A DNA stretch of 64,000 nt from Flavobacteriaceae bacterium (lineage in GTDB: Bacteria > Bacteroidota > Bacteroidia > Flavobacteriales > Flavobacteriaceae). Shown piece after piece: positions 4,633-64,000 of this stretch. The stretch is from contig JABXHX010000051.1 in NCBI GenBank assembly GCA_013373385.1, positions 1 to 64,000 on the forward strand, written 5' to 3'. The notes below the pieces were generated by a model. It was not told where the DNA came from and did no database searches. It was given only the letters and a program-made list of their open reading frames with translations. Positions within the stretch are counted from its first letter, which is position 1; each line of letters begins with the position of its first letter. The position numbers and the translations under genes were made by a program.

Positions 4633-5214
4633 ATGAAATCTTTCATTATTGGTATTGCTAGTATTCTATTAACAACAACTGTATACTCACAACAAGATTC
4701 GATTCCTGCAAATACACTTGACTATCAGTTTAAAACATTGTACAGAAAATCTAGCAGTTATCAAGAATACAAAGTCATTAAAAAAACATCGTATAACCAA
4801 CTACATAAAAACGTACTAGATTCTATTAAAGGATTAACAGGCATCATAAACAATAATTCTCGATTAATTAGCTCACAAGAAGACACTATAAGCAACTTAC
4901 ACAAAACCAAAGCAGCAACCACAAATAAGTTACAAGTTGCGCTACAGAAAGAAAATTCAATTTCTTTATTTGGTATTGTTCTAACAAAAAGTGTTTATGC
5001 TACTATTTTGTTTTCTATTATTTTTATTTTAATTGTTCTTTTACTTTACTTTATCTATAAATTTAAAAACAGTAATGTATTAACTGTTGCTGCTAAAAGT
5101 GATTTACAGATTGTTGAAGATGATTTTAATCTATTTAGAAAGAAATCATTAGAAAGAGAGCAGAAACTTCGCAGACAGCTACAAGACGAAATTATAAAAA
5201 ACAGGGGCAACTAA
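4633..5214 (+). CDS. Secreted/inner-membrane coiled-coil protein of unknown function
   Basis: A 193-residue protein with an N-terminal signal peptide (cleavage likely after residue 19, before QQDS), a polar Ser/Asn/Lys-rich periplasmic stretch predicted helical, one strong transmembrane segment at about 119-142 (ATILFSIIFILIVLLLYFIY), and a charged helical tail (about 155-190) that would face the cytoplasm. I do not recognise a catalytic domain. Similar flavobacterial proteins are sometimes labelled tRNA (guanine-N1)-methyltransferase; nothing in this sequence supports that label. It stands alone after the ribosomal cluster terminator. Its stop codon abuts the upstream motif of the small-RNA-like element starting at 5214. 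Confidence 0.75.
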   Translation: MKSFIIGIASILLTTTVYSQQDSIPANTLDYQFKTLYRKSSSYQEYKVIKKTSYNQLHKNVLDSIKGLTGIINNNSRLISSQEDTISNLHKTKAATTNKLQVALQKENSISLFGIVLTKSVYATILFSIIFILIVLLLYFIYKFKNSNVLTVAAKSDLQIVEDDFNLFRKKSLEREQKLRRQLQDEIIKNRGN

Positions 5215-5306
5215 CTGTTTTCAGTGAATAGCTTCTCCCTGTTTTCGGTGATGTGATTTTTACCATTTATGGGTATTGCGTGTAAAAGATTTACAATATA
5301 GATTTG
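5214..5306 (+). promoter_or_regulatory. Control region of small RNA copy 1 (paired motifs plus promoter)
   Basis: Two CTGTTTTC(A/G)G motifs at 5215-5224 and 5239-5248 (24 nt apart) precede a conserved patch (CCATTTATGGGTATTG, 5263-5278). TTG (5276-5278), a 20-nt spacer and TAGATTTG (5299-5306) form a Bacteroidota promoter. The same arrangement recurs at 57232-57323 and 60231-60323 with identical promoter spacing. Confidence 0.7.
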
Positions 5307-5311
5307 TATCA

Positions 5312-5402
5312 TACAATTACAGCAAAATAAATGTAATTATAGCCCCAACATTTGTTACGTATAAGCGATTAAATTTCTCCCTAAATTTTTAATCGCTTTT
5401 TT
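5312..5402 (+). ncRNA. Predicted small RNA, copy 1 of a three-copy family
   Basis: The predicted transcript of about 90 nt starts a few bases after the TAGATTTG box and ends in a strong intrinsic terminator: arms AAGCGATTAAA (5363-5373) and TTTAATCGCTT (5388-5398) followed by T residues. The 14-nt terminator loop carries CTCCCTA. The body differs from copies 2 and 3 but keeps a C-rich spot (AGCCCCAAC) and a TTTGTTACGTAT segment just before the terminator. No start codon with a convincing reading frame is present. It lies between a membrane protein gene and convergent prfA. The function is unknown; the 5' end is inferred. Confidence 0.6.
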
Positions 5403-5410
5403 ATTGTAAT

Positions 5411-18370: not shown

Positions 18371-18444
18371 GGCCACGTGGCGCAACTGAATAGCGCATCT
18401 GATTACGGCTCAGAAGGTTATAGGTTTGAATCCTATCGTGGTCA
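18371..18444 (+). tRNA. tRNA-Arg (anticodon ACG)
   Basis: All four arms fold: acceptor GGCCACG / CGTGGTC with A as discriminator, D arm GCGC...GCGC, anticodon arm TCTGA-TTACGGC-TCAGA giving anticodon ACG (18404-18406), and T arm ATAGG-TTTGAAT-CCTAT. CCA is not encoded. A TATATTTG box stands upstream and an intrinsic terminator downstream, so it is a single-gene unit. Confidence 0.97.
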
Positions 18445-19343: not shown

Positions 19344-20180
19344 CTAACTTTTATAATATTTTAAAGAAATCCAATTATTTCTTTCTAATGTTTTTTGAAG
19401 TGTTAAACCATACTTAATTACTTCTGTATCTAAAATAGAAATATCTTCTTTATAAAAACCACTCAATAATAAAAAACCATTATTATTTAAACATTTTGTA
19501 TATGTTTCCATATCATTAAGCAATATGTTACGGTTAATATTTGCTATAATTACATCAAATTTTTGCTTACTTAACAAGCTTGCATCTCCTTCAAAAAACT
19601 GAATATGCTTACAATTGTTTCTTGTTGCATTTTCTAGAGAGTTAAGATAGCACCAATTATCAATATCAATTCCCTCAATAGGTTTTGCTCCTTTCATTTC
19701 TGCAAAAATGGCTAAAATTCCAGTTCCACAGCCCATATCTAAAACCGATTTATTCTCTAAATCTAACGCCAGTAATTGTTGAATCATCATGTGTGTGGTT
19801 TCATGGTGCCCCGTACCAAAACTCATTTTTGGTTCTATCACAATATCGTATTGCAATTTTTTATTTTCGTGAAATGGCGCTCTTACACTTACCAAACCAT
19901 CAACTTCTATAGGTTCAAAATTCTTCTCCCATTCACTATTCCAATTGGTTTGCGCAACTTCTTTTTGTTGATATGAAATTTCAAATTCAGAAGATTTTAG
20001 AATTGCAATATCTTCTATTATACCCGCAAACCAATCTTGTTGTTGTATGTATGCTGTTACTCCATTTTCGTTTTCAACAAAACTTTCAAATCCTGCTAGC
20101 CCTAATTCTGCTATTAAAATTTCTGTTGCAGGCTCTTTGGGGCTTACAACAAAGTTGTATTCTTTATAAATTGCATCCAT
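19344..20180 (-). CDS. prmA: Ribosomal protein L11 methyltransferase
   Basis: A 278-residue SAM-dependent methyltransferase that trimethylates L11. The N-terminal substrate-binding domain is followed by the methyltransferase core: FGTGHHETTHMM, VLDMGCGTGILAIFAEMKGA (SAM motif I) and DVIIANINRNILLNDM (NIN motif IV). The start overlaps the tpiA stop by one base (TAATG), so translation is probably coupled. Confidence 0.96.
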   Translation of the reverse strand: MDAIYKEYNFVVSPKEPATEILIAELGLAGFESFVENENGVTAYIQQQDWFAGIIEDIAILKSSEFEISYQQKEVAQTNWNSEWEKNFEPIEVDGLVSVRAPFHENKKLQYDIVIEPKMSFGTGHHETTHMMIQQLLALDLENKSVLDMGCGTGILAIFAEMKGAKPIEGIDIDNWCYLNSLENATRNNCKHIQFFEGDASLLSKQKFDVIIANINRNILLNDMETYTKCLNNNGFLLLSGFYKEDISILDTEVIKYGLTLQKTLERNNWISLKYYKS

Positions 20181-57163: not shown

Positions 57164-57231
57164 TTGAATGTCTGAATTCATTTTCTATTAGCTACAACTC
57201 TGATTTACTTTACCACTACTCGATTACACTC
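57164..57231. other. Short leader of the small-RNA-like element, no gene
   Basis: Together with 57435-57588 this flanks small RNA copy 2 in the 425-bp gap between dacA and the ABC exporter; no other feature is seen apart from a faint partial CTGCTTTCG copy near 57520. Confidence 0.5.
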
Positions 57232-57323
57232 ACTGCTTTCGGTACTATAGACTCACTGTTTTCGGTGATGCCATTTCTCCCATTTATGGGTATTGTATGG
57301 CTTGGTTTTCCGATATATATTTG
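57232..57323 (+). promoter_or_regulatory. Control region of small RNA copy 2
   Basis: CTGCTTTCGG (57233-57242) and CTGTTTTCGG (57256-57265), 23 nt apart, the second inside TCAC-TGTTTTCG-GTGA. TTG (57293-57295), a 20-nt spacer and TATATTTG (57316-57323) form the promoter. Confidence 0.7.
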
Positions 57324-57328
57324 AAATG

Positions 57329-57434
57329 TAATAAATATCTAAAAAGATTTTCATTGACATAAATTATCCCCTCTCTAATAATTATTTGTACTCGAAGCGA
57401 TTAAATTTTTCCCTAGATTTTTAATCGCTTTTTT
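57329..57434 (+). ncRNA. Predicted small RNA, copy 2
   Basis: A transcript of about 106 nt. The last 60 nt (57375-57434) are identical to 60377-60436 of copy 3. An unpaired TATCCCCT lies mid-way, and the terminator arms AAGCGATTAAA / TTTAATCGCTT enclose a loop with TCCCTAG. No reading frame is convincing. It runs toward the minus-strand ABC exporter gene. Confidence 0.65.
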
Positions 57435-57588
57435 ATTTGCTTATTTTTTTTAATAAAGGAGTAAAGAAGCAGGGCAATGACAAGTTTCTTTTTGATACTT
57501 TAAACTACTATTATAGATTACTGCTTTCGTAGAAACAACAGTATAAGAGCCATAAATTGTAATGCTACAATTCTTATTATAACTACAT

Positions 57589-60082: not shown

Positions 60083-60230
60083 AAACTAGTACTTTTGTAA
60101 GTATCAAAACTACATAAATTAATTGGTTTTCACCTGTTGTTCATTTTATAATAATATTGTTTGATTAAAGTAATAAAATACATCATTCAACGATTCTTAA
60201 TTCATTATCTATAATCACTTTTTTCAAGTC

Positions 60231-60323
60231 CCTGTTTTCAGTGAACCCTTAATCACGGTTTTCGGTGATGTCATTTTTCCCATTTTTGGGGATTGCACAC
60301 CCTAACATTCTGCTATATATTTG
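60231..60323 (+). promoter_or_regulatory. Control region of small RNA copy 3
   Basis: CTGTTTTCAG (60232-60241) and CGGTTTTCGG (60256-60265), 24 nt apart, the second within ATCAC-GGTTTTCG-GTGAT. TTG (60293-60295), 20 nt, TATATTTG (60316-60323). Confidence 0.7.
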
Positions 60324-60328
60324 AAGTG

Positions 60329-60438
60329 TACAAAACAAGAACAAGTAAAAGAATTTCATTGACATAAATTTATCCCCTAATAATTATTTGTACTCGAAGC
60401 GATTAAATTTTTCCCTAGATTTTTAATCGCTTTTTTTT
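60329..60438 (+). ncRNA. Predicted small RNA, copy 3
   Basis: A transcript of about 110 nt with the shared TTTCATTGACATAAATT block, an ATCCCCTAATAA segment and the common terminator (arms 60397-60407 and 60422-60432, T8 tail). It lies alone between truA (minus) and the phosphodiesterase gene (plus), so it is not a leader of either. Confidence 0.65.
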
Positions 60439-60707: not shown

Positions 60708-61202
60708 ATGAAAAGGATTTTACTGCTTTCTGACACACATGGCTATATTGATGCGCAAATTTTAAAATTTGTAGAACAAGCTGATGAAGTTTGGCATGCA
60801 GGAGACATTGGTGATTTACATGTAACTGATACCATAAAAAAACAAAAACCTTTACGAGCGGTATATGGAAATATTGATACCAATGAGGCTCGGTTAGAGT
60901 TTCCGTTAGACAATAAATTTACCGTAGAAAATGTAACGGTATGGATAACACATATTGGTGGCTATCCAAGTAAATACAACCAACGAATTAGAGAAGAAAT
61001 TAAAAAAAATCCGCCAACAATTTTTATTAGCGGACATTCTCATATCTTAAAAGTGCAATACGATAAAACATTAAACTTATTGCATTTAAATCCTGGAGCA
61101 GCAGGCAAGCATGGTTTTCATAAAGTTAGAACCATGTTGCGTTTTACCATAGACAAAAGCGACATTAAAGAACTAGAAATTATAGAATTGGCTAAGCGTT
61201 GA
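60708..61202 (+). CDS. YfcE/MJ0936 family metallophosphodiesterase
   Basis: A 164-residue calcineurin-like phosphodiesterase with the metal-site motifs SDTHGYID (Asp, His), HAGDIGD, YGNIDTNE, THIGGYP and SGHSHILK. It should cleave phosphodiester model substrates in the cytoplasm; the natural substrate is unknown. Its last 11 nt overlap the convergent histidine kinase gene. Confidence 0.93.
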   Translation: MKRILLLSDTHGYIDAQILKFVEQADEVWHAGDIGDLHVTDTIKKQKPLRAVYGNIDTNEARLEFPLDNKFTVENVTVWITHIGGYPSKYNQRIREEIKKNPPTIFISGHSHILKVQYDKTLNLLHLNPGAAGKHGFHKVRTMLRFTIDKSDIKELEIIELAKR

Positions 61203-63003
61203 CTTTTGTTTCTTTTTCTACAATTGGCAGTTCAATCTCTATAATAGTCCCGGTTTTTGAATTTGAATTGATTTCAAATTTTCCTTTCATCATTTGTATT
61301 CTTGCTTCAATTTGATTGATTCCTAAACCATCTTTATTTGCAATGGTGCTTTTATCAAAACCATCTCCATCATCTTGTATGGCAATTAACAACCTATCCT
61401 TTTTTTGATGCACTTTTACCAAGGCCTTTTTTGCGTTACTATGTTTTAAAATATTATTTACCAACTCTTGGATAATATTATAAACTTTTATTTCAAAGTT
61501 TTGTTGGTAACGTTTTACTCCTTTAATATCTGTTTCTATCTCTATTTTTGAATTTGAATATTTATCTGCCATATCTTTAATAGCAAAAGCCAATCCAAAT
61601 TTTAACAGCACCGAAGACACTAGTGTATGAGACAAGTCTCTAATTTTTTGTGAGGCTTCTACAATTATTTTTTGAGTTTTATCTATTTCTATAGGTGTAG
61701 TACCGTTAAACTGCATTTTGGTTGCTTGCAAATGTAAATTTGCAGAAGATAATAGAGAGCTTACACTATCATGCAAGGTTTCTGCAATTTGTTTACGCTC
61801 AGTTTCTTTACCATCTAAGGTAGCATTTAAAATACGAGTTTGAGATTCTGATTTGAGTTTATCTATTTTACTTTTTTGATCTAATTCGTTTTGTTTTATT
61901 TTTAGCTTTAAGTTACGTTGACGTAATTTATAGTTGTATAAAATTACCCCAGAACTTATCAAAACCAACAAACTTAAAACTCCAAAAAACCAAGCTTTTC
62001 TTTGTTCTTCTGCTTTGGCTTTTTCAGTTTTTTCTTTTGCTAATCTTAAATTGTATTTCTCGTAAATTTCATTAATAATATGATTAATTTCTGCGTTTCT
62101 TAAACTATCTTTAATTAAATAGGACTTTTCTTGATAATCATATGCAGTATAGTCTTTTAATAAATATAAAGTCCAAGCCAAGTTATAATATACTTGCTCT
62201 TTATATTTTACACCACTATTAGTTTTGTTATTCTCTATTAAAGCCAACGCATCTATATATGTTTCCTTAGCTTTTATGTAGTTTTTTTCACCTAAATGTA
62301 TGTTTGCTAAATTTATTAAAGCAGCAGATTCAGAAACTTTGTCATTATTTCTCTTATGAATATTAATAGCTTTAATTGCATAATCTCTTGCTAAATCAAA
62401 AACTGAATCCTGAGTATATATCCCAGATAAATTTGTATAGGCTGATGCCTTCAATGATTCAATTCGGTTATCAAAAGTTGGCATTTTTATAATTTTATTA
62501 TAAAACTGTAATGCACTATCTCTCTTTCCTAATCTATAATATTCTGCTCCAATTCTTAAATAATTACTAGCTGTAAGCCTCTGACTACTAAATGACTCTA
62601 CATAACTACTCTCTTTTAAATTAATTAATTGATTGCTTTGTAAGATATTTAAAGATTTTTTAAAATATAACAACGCTTTTTTATGATTGTTTAATTTAAT
62701 AAAAATATCGCCAATTAAAAAACTACATAAATATTCAAGCTCTTTATCTTCATATTTTTTAGCCTTTTCAATTAATATTAAAGAAATTTCTAGCGATTTG
62801 GAATATTCTTTTTTCCTAAATAAAGTTTTAGCTTTCTCTAAGTCTCTCTTAAATATATTATTTTTTTCTTGTTGTATAGTAAATGTTAAAGGAGAGACTT
62901 TTAAAGTCTCTCCTTTAACATTATTAATAATAGCATACACTTTTATCAGGGGCGTCAATATCATTAACCCACAAAGGATAAAAATTCTCATATTTTTTTG
63001 CAT
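61192..63003 (-). CDS. TPR-containing sensor histidine kinase (NarX/HisKA_3 type)
   Basis: A 603-residue kinase with signal peptide (MRIFILCGLMILTPLIKVYA), periplasmic TPR repeats (about 50-310: KALLYFKKSLNIL, LRIGAEYYRLGKRDSALQFY, AALINLANIHLGEKNY), a transmembrane segment at about 334-352, a coiled linker, HisKA_3 with RKQIAETLHDSVSSLL and HATPase with ELVNNILKHSNAKKA, DDGDGFD and GLGINQIEARIQMM. It should phosphorylate the NarL/LuxR-type regulator ending at 63864. A perfect 41-bp palindrome lies at codons 28-41, just after the signal peptide. Confidence 0.94.
   Translation of the reverse strand: MQKNMRIFILCGLMILTPLIKVYAIINNVKGETLKVSPLTFTIQQEKNNIFKRDLEKAKTLFRKKEYSKSLEISLILIEKAKKYEDKELEYLCSFLIGDIFIKLNNHKKALLYFKKSLNILQSNQLINLKESSYVESFSSQRLTASNYLRIGAEYYRLGKRDSALQFYNKIIKMPTFDNRIESLKASAYTNLSGIYTQDSVFDLARDYAIKAINIHKRNNDKVSESAALINLANIHLGEKNYIKAKETYIDALALIENNKTNSGVKYKEQVYYNLAWTLYLLKDYTAYDYQEKSYLIKDSLRNAEINHIINEIYEKYNLRLAKEKTEKAKAEEQRKAWFFGVLSLLVLISSGVILYNYKLRQRNLKLKIKQNELDQKSKIDKLKSESQTRILNATLDGKETERKQIAETLHDSVSSLLSSANLHLQATKMQFNGTTPIEIDKTQKIIVEASQKIRDLSHTLVSSVLLKFGLAFAIKDMADKYSNSKIEIETDIKGVKRYQQNFEIKVYNIIQELVNNILKHSNAKKALVKVHQKKDRLLIAIQDDGDGFDKSTIANKDGLGINQIEARIQMMKGKFEINSNSKTGTIIEIELPIVEKETKVNA
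62882..62922. repeat. Perfect 41-bp palindrome within the kinase 5' coding region
   Basis: Arms AATGTTAAAGGAGAGACTTT (62882-62901) and AAAGTCTCTCCTTTAACATT (62903-62922) are exact complements around one T. In RNA it gives a 20-bp hairpin resembling a terminator, 81 nt after the start codon and 90 nt after the preceding lipoprotein gene. Confidence 0.85.
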
Positions 63004-63011
63004 ATGTTATT

Positions 63012-63722
63012 TTAAATTGCACTTAAAATTGTTTCTGAATTTGAAGTTCCATCATCAACAACGATAACAGGTTTGCTTACAGTATATTCAGCTGTCAATC
63101 CTTTTCCGTATAATTTATGATGGTTTACAAAATCTAATTTTACAGGTTTATCATCTTCACTTTTTGGGAATGTTCTTGAAAATTTAGTTTCATTTGTTGT
63201 GCCTTTTGATAAATGAATCTCGTAAGCTTCTTTTTTATCATTGTATTGAAAATCTACTTCAATATTATCTTTTACTTCAAAGTCTAACAGAATAGTACCA
63301 TCTTCATTCACAGATAACTCATAGGTTTTTAAAAACTCTTTAGATTCTCCTTTTGCAAATTTAATATTTTCATCTTCAACAGAAAGTTTTGTGTATTTAC
63401 CTGACTCTCCATCAATAAAACCAATACTTAACTTATTGTTGTCTAATGTAAAATCTTCTCTAAGGTTGGCTTCAGTGTTATGATTCACTTTAGATAAATG
63501 AATCTCATTTGTTAATGAACTAGCATCTAGGCGTTTGTTAGAAACTGTGTTTTCTGCTACAACATAATCAACAGAATAAGCTCCTGATGCATCTCTTTTT
63601 AATTTTGCTTTCTTTAATAATGTTTCTTGTGGTGCAACATATGGGTCAGTATCGTTCATTGTACAAGATGCAGAACTTAATGCTATTACAAGAGCTAAAA
63701 GGGCAACGCTTAATTTTTTCAT
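63012..63722 (-). CDS. Lipoprotein of unknown function in the two-component operon
   Basis: A 236-residue lipoprotein with lipobox SSASC (Cys20). The mature protein is acidic and strand-rich with repeated patterns: LTNEIHLSKVNHNTEANLRED and AYEIHLSKGTTNETKFSRTF share EIHLSK, so it may hold two related beta modules (about 75-140 and 165-236). No family is recognised. It ends 9 nt before the kinase start and lies between it and the response regulator. Confidence 0.75.
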   Translation of the reverse strand: MKKLSVALLALVIALSSASCTMNDTDPYVAPQETLLKKAKLKRDASGAYSVDYVVAENTVSNKRLDASSLTNEIHLSKVNHNTEANLREDFTLDNNKLSIGFIDGESGKYTKLSVEDENIKFAKGESKEFLKTYELSVNEDGTILLDFEVKDNIEVDFQYNDKKEAYEIHLSKGTTNETKFSRTFPKSEDDKPVKLDFVNHHKLYGKGLTAEYTVSKPVIVVDDGTSNSETILSAI

Positions 63723-63809
63723 GATAACTTAGTTTAGAGATATTTTTATTTATTTTTATTTGTTTTTAAAAAAATGCATGGGTTAGCTTTGATAAATTCT
63801 AATAAAGGC

Positions 63810-63855
63810 TAGGGGTTTTAACTATTTAGGGGGCTATTGTACCTTTATTTAGGGG
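63810..63855. promoter_or_regulatory. CCCCTA direct-repeat operator in front of the lipoprotein gene
   Basis: Three TAGGGG copies on the plus strand (63810-63815, 63827-63832, 63850-63855) read as CCCCTAAATA-type repeats on the minus strand, in the 141-bp gap between the regulator gene and the lipoprotein gene. They resemble the NarL heptamer-like motif upstream of GSIII. Confidence 0.4.
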
Positions 63856-63863
63856 ATAGAATT

Positions 63864-64000
63864 TTAAATCATTCTGTGCTTAACAGCAAACATTGCTAAA
63901 CCCACCGCATTTTTTACTTTTAGTTTTTTTAATAATTTTTTTCTATACGTTTCAACTGTATTTGTACTTATTAATAATTGATCTGCTATTTCTGGTGTAC
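63864..64000 (-). CDS. LuxR/NarL-type response regulator, C-terminal end (cut by window)
   Basis: The last 45 codons of a LuxR helix-turn-helix domain: TPEIADQLLISTNTVETYRK then KLLKKLKVKNAVGLAMFAVK, ending HRMI at the TAA 63864-63866. ISTNTVETYRKKLLKKL is the recognition-helix region typical of NarL/FixJ regulators. The receiver domain lies outside the window. It is upstream of the lipoprotein and histidine kinase genes on the same strand, making a three-gene signalling locus. Confidence 0.92.
   Translation of the reverse strand, partial: TPEIADQLLISTNTVETYRKKLLKKLKVKNAVGLAMFAVKHRMI

Follow-up and report, generated by a model that had tools for sequence, protein, structure and literature searches.

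What are the short elements that recur between the genes of this stretch of flavobacterial DNA, and what controls them? In a preliminary description of the window (by which the whole analysed stretch of 64,000 nt is meant), three intergenic elements were placed at 5214-5402, 57232-57434 and 60231-60438, and renewed reading has borne out both these positions and the order of the parts within each element.

Three intergenic elements and their relatives

The three elements are 69-82% identical to one another in pairwise comparison (E 1e-15 to 1e-46). Against the whole 2.94-Mb genome, copy 1 found copy 3 (E 7e-16) and copy 2 (E 2.5e-15) and, beyond these, no match under E 0.007; copy 2 matched copy 3 at E 1e-46 with 82% identity. 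A fourth, degenerate copy with mismatched terminator pairs and weak operators is located on another contig (G000:C23), at 19697-19757 in the search with copy 2 and at 19612-19755 in the search with the covariance model R1 (see below).

The promoter had been described as TTG, exactly 20 nt and TA(G/T)ATTTG. This is exact in 3/3 copies, and TTG-N20-TAnnTTTG occurs in all 24 genes of a first set, collected by genome scan and terminator pattern with spacers of 19-21 nt permitted (the three of this window and 21 from relatives). The upstream motif CTGTTTTC(A/G)G, said to stand twice in each copy, mostly does so, but it is replaced by CTGCTTTCGG once in copy 2 and by CGGTTTTCGG once in copy 3. These motifs are parts of 18-bp palindromes of the TCACTGTTTTCGGTGA type, 5' of the promoter. 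The patch noticed before TTG is also present, but it has to be corrected to a third, imperfect palindrome, CCATTTATGGG, which abuts TTG.

In copy 1, all parts of which lie on the plus strand, the distal operator O3 (CTAACTGTTTTCAGTGAA) occupies 5211-5228, the same position as O3 of the regulator promoters treated below, and overlaps the stop codon of the preceding ORF (4633-5214). It is followed by the palindromic, co-varying operator O2 (CTCCCTGTTTTCGGTGAT, 5235-5252), by O1 (ACCATTTATGGGT, 5262-5274), which abuts the -33 box, and by the promoter TTG-N20-TAGATTTG (5276-5306). The predicted small RNA (sRNA) of about 94 nt extends from a putative start at 5311 to 5404 (R1 E 1.9e-12), with a C4 run at 5343 and an intrinsic terminator at 5363-5398 that has CCC in its loop. 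Copy 2, also on the plus strand, has a degenerate O3 (57229-57246), O2 (CTCACTGTTTTCGGTGAT, 57252-57269), then O1 (CCCATTTATGGGT) and the promoter within 57279-57323 (TTG at 57293, N20, TATATTTG at 57316-57323), and an sRNA predicted at 57328-57436 (R1 E 8.8e-14) with its terminator at 57395-57430. Copy 3 is built alike on the same strand: O3 at 60229-60246, O2 (ATCACGGTTTTCGGTGAT) at 60252-60269, O1 (CCCATTTTTGGGG) and promoter within 60279-60323 (TTG at 60293, N20, TATATTTG at 60316-60323), and an sRNA from a presumed start at 60328 to 60438 (R1 E 1.4e-14) that includes the terminator at 60397-60432.

Flavo-1 had been named as a possible Rfam relative. This did not hold: the elements have no match at gathering score in the window, and no credible family, that of LhrC included, was found when six loci were searched at E up to 5. 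The only gathering-score matches of the window are a 16S rRNA cut off by the contig start (1-371, minus strand) and one tRNA (18371-18444, plus strand).

Relatives of the elements were found in 8/97 genomes of the genus by a first scan. A terminator-only pattern was too strict as a search tool (16/166 genomes) and was given up. The covariance model R1, built only from sRNA genes, the 24 of the first set, matched 62 of the 166 genomes of the genus with a limit of E 0.01, a count that includes weak matches and matches to regulator promoters. The genus is Polaribacter according to the named loci, and the same match pattern is seen in Polaribacter sp. Hel1_85 (G120), P. irgensii 23-P (G106) and Polaribacter sp. 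BM10 (G108). Among 35 named genomes, R1 matched 10 of the 11 from Polaribacter, and in the other 24 gave only two weak matches (E 0.01 and 0.04). In a sample of 299 genomes of the family, two members of the genus matched, and one genome outside it did so weakly (E 0.001).

A working set of 68 sRNA genes from 40 Polaribacter genomes was taken from 54 loci, with N20 required. The predicted sRNAs are about 72-126 nt long. As had been stated for the three copies, the bodies drift while promoter, operators and terminator are conserved, and no reading frame is kept: the longest complete ATG frame has 16 aa, and one of at least 15 aa is present in only 1/68. Terminator covariation was dropped as evidence, being too weak (1/11 pairs changed on both sides). 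In genome G128, two sRNA-like genes (L172, G128:C85:45983-46941) have TCTCC(C/T)TGTTTACA(T/A)GGA-like operators and changed terminator stems that look re-paired by eye; no regulator ortholog was found in this 100% complete genome, by a search run without its own positive control, and its two sRNA matches are weaker.

Most of the copies share one syntenic place. The prfA locus holds 62/68, of which 56 have prfA downstream and 6 were recognised by the upstream gene only; four more lie between carbonic-anhydrase-like and CvpA-like genes (named by eye), and copies 2 and 3 of the window make up the rest. Tandem arrays of three to five copies have grown in place, with five in Hel1_85, five in G037 and four in G132, at a spacing of about 234-385 nt. 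prfA beside copy 1 was confirmed with NCBIfam. Copy 1 is thus the one at the syntenic place and probably the ancestral one; the other two are additional and lie near a regulatory operon. The statement that the neighbour genes are unrelated applies to copy 1 only; copies 2 and 3 flank an ABC-transporter gene and truA, near a two-component operon whose promoter bears the same operators as the sRNA genes.

The covariance search in relatives had been suggested in order to tell a family with a conserved promoter from a scattered repeat. The copies do keep their promoter, and their concentration at one syntenic locus argues against a mobile repeat. Together with the conserved operators and terminator, it supports the preliminary reading of the elements as paralogous, stand-alone regulatory RNAs, on the premise that they are transcribed.

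The response regulator and its operators

The preliminary description overlooked that the upstream motifs are operators common to a response-regulator gene at the window edge. The 3' part of this NarL/GacA-type gene occupies 63864-64000 on the minus strand; the gene continues on the same contig (C38) to 64538, and its promoter and operators lie past the end of the window. It is the ortholog (81% identity) of a response-regulator gene in one relative (L019), which is preceded by the same palindromes, and 133 of the 166 genomes of the genus have an ortholog with a limit of E 1e-60. The product has a receiver domain (PF00072, E 1.7e-23) and a GerE helix-turn-helix (PF00196, E 8.9e-18), as is characteristic of the NarL/LuxR type, and scores 131 bits against the NCBIfam equivalog model for UvrY/SirA/GacA, below its cut-off of 280. 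The second gene of the operon (63012-63722, minus strand) encodes a lipoprotein-like protein of 236 aa with no match in Pfam or NCBIfam and with a KRDASG stretch. The third (61192-63003, minus strand) was assigned by Pfam and synteny to a TPR histidine kinase with HisKA_3 and HATPase_c domains. In ten inspected loci from several genera, with genes identified by eye and several loci yielding only a short kinase frame by ORF picking, the lipoprotein-like gene directly follows the regulator in eight; in T. finnmarkense it is displaced, and in Lutibacter flavus that place has no such gene. A rho-like gene (L056:3691-5301, plus strand, in one of them) is divergent and upstream of the operon in 10/10, again by eye.

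TTG-N20-TAnnTTTG is present in 54/57 regulator promoters; the spacer is N21 in G024, and G040 and G072 have no match. Most of them carry the palindromes of the sRNA genes at the same distances, and palindromes are weak or unclear in G110, G112, G013, G010 and G055. In Tenacibaculum, the regulator promoters keep the layout, and their palindromes are different ones, of the type TTAGGGTTAACCCTAA. Two other candidates, sigma-54 boxes and LytTR sites, were dropped after the palindromes of the relatives came to view. Two side observations belong here. In one genome (L062, G153:C4:670377-671015), which has the operators and an sRNA, the regulator gene contains an in-frame TAA beside the recognition helix. 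On a 4.9-kb contig of the present assembly, a further regulator gene of the NarL type (L028, C80:4102-4722) has tandem CTCCCTGTTTTCGGGGA palindromes (L005, G000:C80:1995-2035) at a distance of about 2 kb; the two may belong to a second system with autoregulation, or the contig may be foreign.

The operators of the sRNA genes and of the regulator gene change together. In the 37 genomes with both promoters, the 18-mer at -43 has on average 15.5/18 identities between sRNA and regulator promoter of the same genome vs 11.9 between genomes; the values are 14.1 and 11.3 for the 18-mer at -65, and 14.2 and 11.5 for O1. No permutation out of 20,000 was as good as the observed pairing in any of these comparisons. 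For example, ATCCCTGAGCTCAGGGAT is found at both the sRNA and the regulator loci of G012 and G020, and ATCCCTGAATTCAGGGAT at those of G025 and G052. The permutation test ignores shared ancestry, to which two observations are offered as an answer. One is the N20 promoter spacer, which as a control gave no agreement within genomes (7.2 within vs 7.7 between); a further control, the 10-mer at -55, overlaps the operators and was left out. A rougher operator picker, by which 41/63 sRNA genes have at least 12/18 identities with their own regulator promoter (3% for random DNA), at times took the wrong palindrome and is superseded by the fixed-position comparison.

The other observation is that the predicted recognition helix of the regulator changes along with the operator. 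In a table with 39 of 48 rows usable (G143 was misread, G012, G020 and G035 were unreadable, and five had no countable half-site), the helix has Glu in 27/27 genomes whose half-site ends in G and Asp in 10/12 whose half-site ends in A. By class, the helix is NT[VI]ETYR in all 20 genomes with CAC[GTC]G, NT[VI]DTYR in the three with CACCA, and HTVESYR in the seven readable genomes with CCCTG only; Asp is found in 7/9 with CCCCA or CCCTA, the exceptions with Glu being G014 and the mixed G078. Half-sites are also mixed in G150, with one of each kind, and in G000 and G028, with one CACCA. R1, too, places 17 of its 41 weak matches (E 1e-5 to 0.01) on regulator promoters. By this comparative evidence, several sRNA copies stand under one two-component regulator, as in LhrC-like systems, and the family consists very probably of multicopy sRNAs driven by that system.

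How far does the regulon extend? Operator-plus-promoter patterns were searched in 37 genomes picked by operator class (21 TCAC and 16 CCCTG). The 84 matches, sorted by hand, fall into 29 regulator promoters, 38 sRNAs and 17 others, with no match for the reversed pattern and 3/37 genomes without any match to the true one. The others include, in the present genome (C60), a site with an outer-membrane beta-barrel/TonB-dependent receptor downstream, according to Pfam; subtilases, of which two were confirmed with Pfam and a further two look similar by eye; secreted proteins of the sortilin-like kind, two of them searched (one below the Pfam cut-off) and two more seen by eye; small lipoprotein-like and secreted proteins; and a few sites with no clear adjacent gene. 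A perfect operator-promoter of this kind precedes a helix-turn-helix protein of about 71 aa, identified by eye, in one genome (L384, G019:C1:2567569). In 15 Tenacibaculum genomes, the operator search gave 18 matches, 12 taken as regulator promoters and six others, of which five stand before a readable protein gene. At four Tenacibaculum loci (L314, L321, L317 and L323), the operator form precedes genes for secreted or lipoprotein-like proteins, judged by eye, and not sRNAs.

An sRNA match at E up to 1e-5 occurs in 43 of the 133 genomes with the regulator and 3 of the 33 without (Fisher p 0.008), and at E up to 3e-5 in 46 and 4 (p 0.011), in a cross-table that is confounded by genome incompleteness. 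The three without it are G145, G126 and G032 (completeness 95, 70 and 68%), where the search that did not find an ortholog was again run without its own positive control. Since 90/133 regulator-bearing genomes lack an sRNA match at E up to 1e-5, the sRNAs are either a lineage-specific addition or have diverged beyond the reach of R1.

CCCC runs in the sRNAs and in an operon leader

What the drifting bodies have in common is a run of C. CCCC is present in 59/68 bodies, where 1.1 would be expected after shuffling. Runs of at least three C are found in 60/68 bodies and CCC in 47/68 terminator loops, with both in 42/68; eight bodies are without even CCC. The predicted probability of being unpaired is 0.96 for the C-runs of the body and 0.95 for those of the terminator loop, vs 0.44 for the other bases of the body, so that unpaired C-rich motifs are present in body and terminator loop as in LhrC-like sRNAs. 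The bodies are poor in G (8.9%, with GGG in 1/68) and contain eight GGA motifs in all 68, unlike RsmX/Y/Z with multiple GGA motifs per RNA.

The same motif appears in the regulator operon itself. The intercistronic leader of the lipoprotein gene (63723-63863, minus strand) has three runs of at least four C, seen as G-runs of the plus strand at 63812, 63829 and 63852, and is the sole one with C4 among 35 leaders of the window. C4 is present in 27, and G4 in none, of 29 corresponding leaders of 22-656 nt, hand-picked from 80 named loci; the two without C4 belong to P. irgensii, which has an sRNA yet no C4 run in the leader (L243), and Lutibacter flavus. Again, the C-runs are mostly unpaired (0.94 vs 0.57, n = 25). 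Around 18 Polaribacter regulator loci, 23/152 leaders contain C4, 17 of them at the lipoprotein gene, and 14 contain G4. In 400-kb samples of two genomes, with 230 leaders each (all pieces of G019 on an even grid, and 2/20 of G037 placed so as to take in the regulator and the sRNA locus), at least two C4 runs occur in 2/230 and 1/230 leaders, and the lipoprotein leader is the richest in both genomes. Single C4 runs are no commoner than G4 (12 and 5 leaders vs 12 and 13), and thus only the array stands out. Leaders in Tenacibaculum have the motif as well, and so do leaders of Polaribacter in which no sRNA was detected, for example in P. glomeratus (L264, no R1 match); the motif is therefore either older than the sRNAs detectable here or unconnected with them. 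C-runs of sRNA and leader cannot pair with each other, which makes a common partner the economical reading. That the operon's own mRNA leader has the motif of the presumably transcribed sRNAs suggests a new RNA feedback circuit.

Possible modes of action and known systems

In the proposed circuit, the TPR histidine kinase, with the small lipoprotein, would phosphorylate the NarL/GacA-type regulator, as family membership suggests. The regulator is predicted, with strong comparative evidence, to bind the two or three 18-bp palindromes and the palindrome abutting the TTG box, and comparison further suggests that it activates the sRNA genes and, besides its own operon, a few genes whose products are surface or secreted proteins. 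The sRNAs, if transcribed as predicted, would expose CCCC runs in an unpaired stretch of the body and in the terminator loop. We are highly confident of these three steps taken together. In a fourth step, the CCCC runs may bind and titrate a putative CCCC-recognising regulator, protein or RNA, that would otherwise act on the CCCC array of the operon's own lipoprotein-kinase leader. Such a decoy is our first choice for this step, tentatively and at somewhat less than an even chance, with antisense action as the main rival. The wider proposal, in which Bacteroidota independently evolved a Gac/Rsm-like circuit and CCCC decoy RNAs close a feedback loop on the sensor operon, is plausible, with the balance tilting against it.

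Readings in which no RNA acts fare worst. A mobile or palindromic intergenic repeat might be thought of from the several copies per genome and the 82% identity of copies 2 and 3, but it is largely contradicted by growth in place at the prfA locus and by operators that co-vary with the regulator promoter, and we regard it as barely tenable. It is also very improbable that the elements are DNA decoys for the regulator, with the transcript a by-product: two or three operator-like palindromes in most copies would suit that role, but the -7 box, the terminator and the unpaired CCCC runs are conserved too. Rho prefers C-rich RNA. The C-rich, G-poor leader could therefore be a Rho-loading site, with sRNAs that affect Rho or merely resemble the site in composition, and the mostly unpaired C-runs of leader and sRNA and the rho-like gene beside the operon would agree with this. 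It is nevertheless unlikely, as the C-runs are short and discrete and the sRNAs, short themselves, have intrinsic terminators at their ends.

A more serious alternative is antisense action of the LhrC kind, in which exposed CCCC would base-pair with runs of G close to target start codons and block translation, and the array in the lipoprotein leader would be a further sRNA-like or sponge region. The G-poor bodies fit, as do C-rich motifs under two-component control, reported for LhrC in the available part of one paper (PMC4132741). On the other hand, G4 near start codons (-30 to +15) is rare, in 2/230 and 0/230 sampled genes, which is a mild objection that concerns G4 and not shorter or G-U pairing; within -40 to +30, five protein-coding places with G4 were seen in 17 sources and none looked conserved. 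Antisense pairing alone also leaves the same motif in the leader of the regulator operon unexplained. We consider it possible but rather doubtful, and give preference to the decoy.

Knowledge of sRNA control in Flavobacteriaceae is sparse. In the present case, a regulator, its operators, an sRNA family and a shared RNA motif can all be made out from sequence. The genus is marine and has named strains (Polaribacter sp. Hel1_85, P. irgensii), and the circuit from two-component system to sRNA is directly testable. A new RNA-binding regulator may be involved, and in these loci one can follow how a NarL-type helix has changed in nature along with its operators.

Among the open matches listed in the literature on small RNAs of Polaribacter and Tenacibaculum, on flavobacterial sRNAs and regulators and on two-component sRNAs of Bacteroidetes, the system was not described. 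The csRNA/CiaRH system of pneumococcus differs from it in regulator class, sequence and phylum. There, five similar sRNAs are under one two-component system, according to the available part of one report (PMC4132741). Within Bacteroidota, the well-studied FopS family of Bacteroides (FopS/RbpB) has multicopy sRNAs with canonical promoters of the phylum that have a single-stranded 5' stretch and end in an intrinsic terminator, and FopS is deposited in Rfam, as given in the accessible part of its description (PMC11697453). That part reports no response-regulator operators and calls the stress-responsive regulator unknown (PMC11697453). As far as this partial source goes, the Polaribacter sRNAs resemble FopS as multicopy sRNAs of the same phylum with phylum-type promoter, single-stranded stretch and intrinsic terminator, and differ in having response-regulator operators, in a comparison by description and by Rfam, where no family matched. 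Rfp18 of Flavobacterium psychrophilum is a flavobacterial sRNA linked to protease expression; compared by description, the available part of the source mentions neither a multicopy family nor a response regulator (PMC9723704).

The Polaribacter circuit is distinct from Gac/Rsm in its CCCC motifs, as opposed to GGA, and in that its titrated partner is only putative. GacA is a LuxR-type regulator with an upstream palindromic element, and RsmX/Y/Z titrate by a repeated short motif a protein that acts on mRNA leaders. In the portions available of two reports, GacA activates the several sRNA genes RsmX/Y/Z, with a duplication into rsmX-1 and rsmX-2 (PMC2375449, PMC7911923). A close likeness is with LhrC1-5 of Listeria, multicopy sRNAs that all depend on the two-component system LisRK and are G-poor, with C-rich motifs exposed in loop, linker and terminator loop, according to the part of the report at hand (PMC4132741). 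On that account, the Polaribacter sRNAs are likewise multicopy, predicted to be under one two-component system, G-poor and C-rich where exposed. They differ in having no Rfam match, in a regulator of the NarL type that has mapped palindromes and is apparently autoregulated, and in the leader of the regulator operon, which carries the same C-run motif. Taken together, these comparisons suggest a new family of two-component-controlled multicopy sRNAs, a kind already known, in which the CCCC motif shared with the operon leader is new and hints at feedback.
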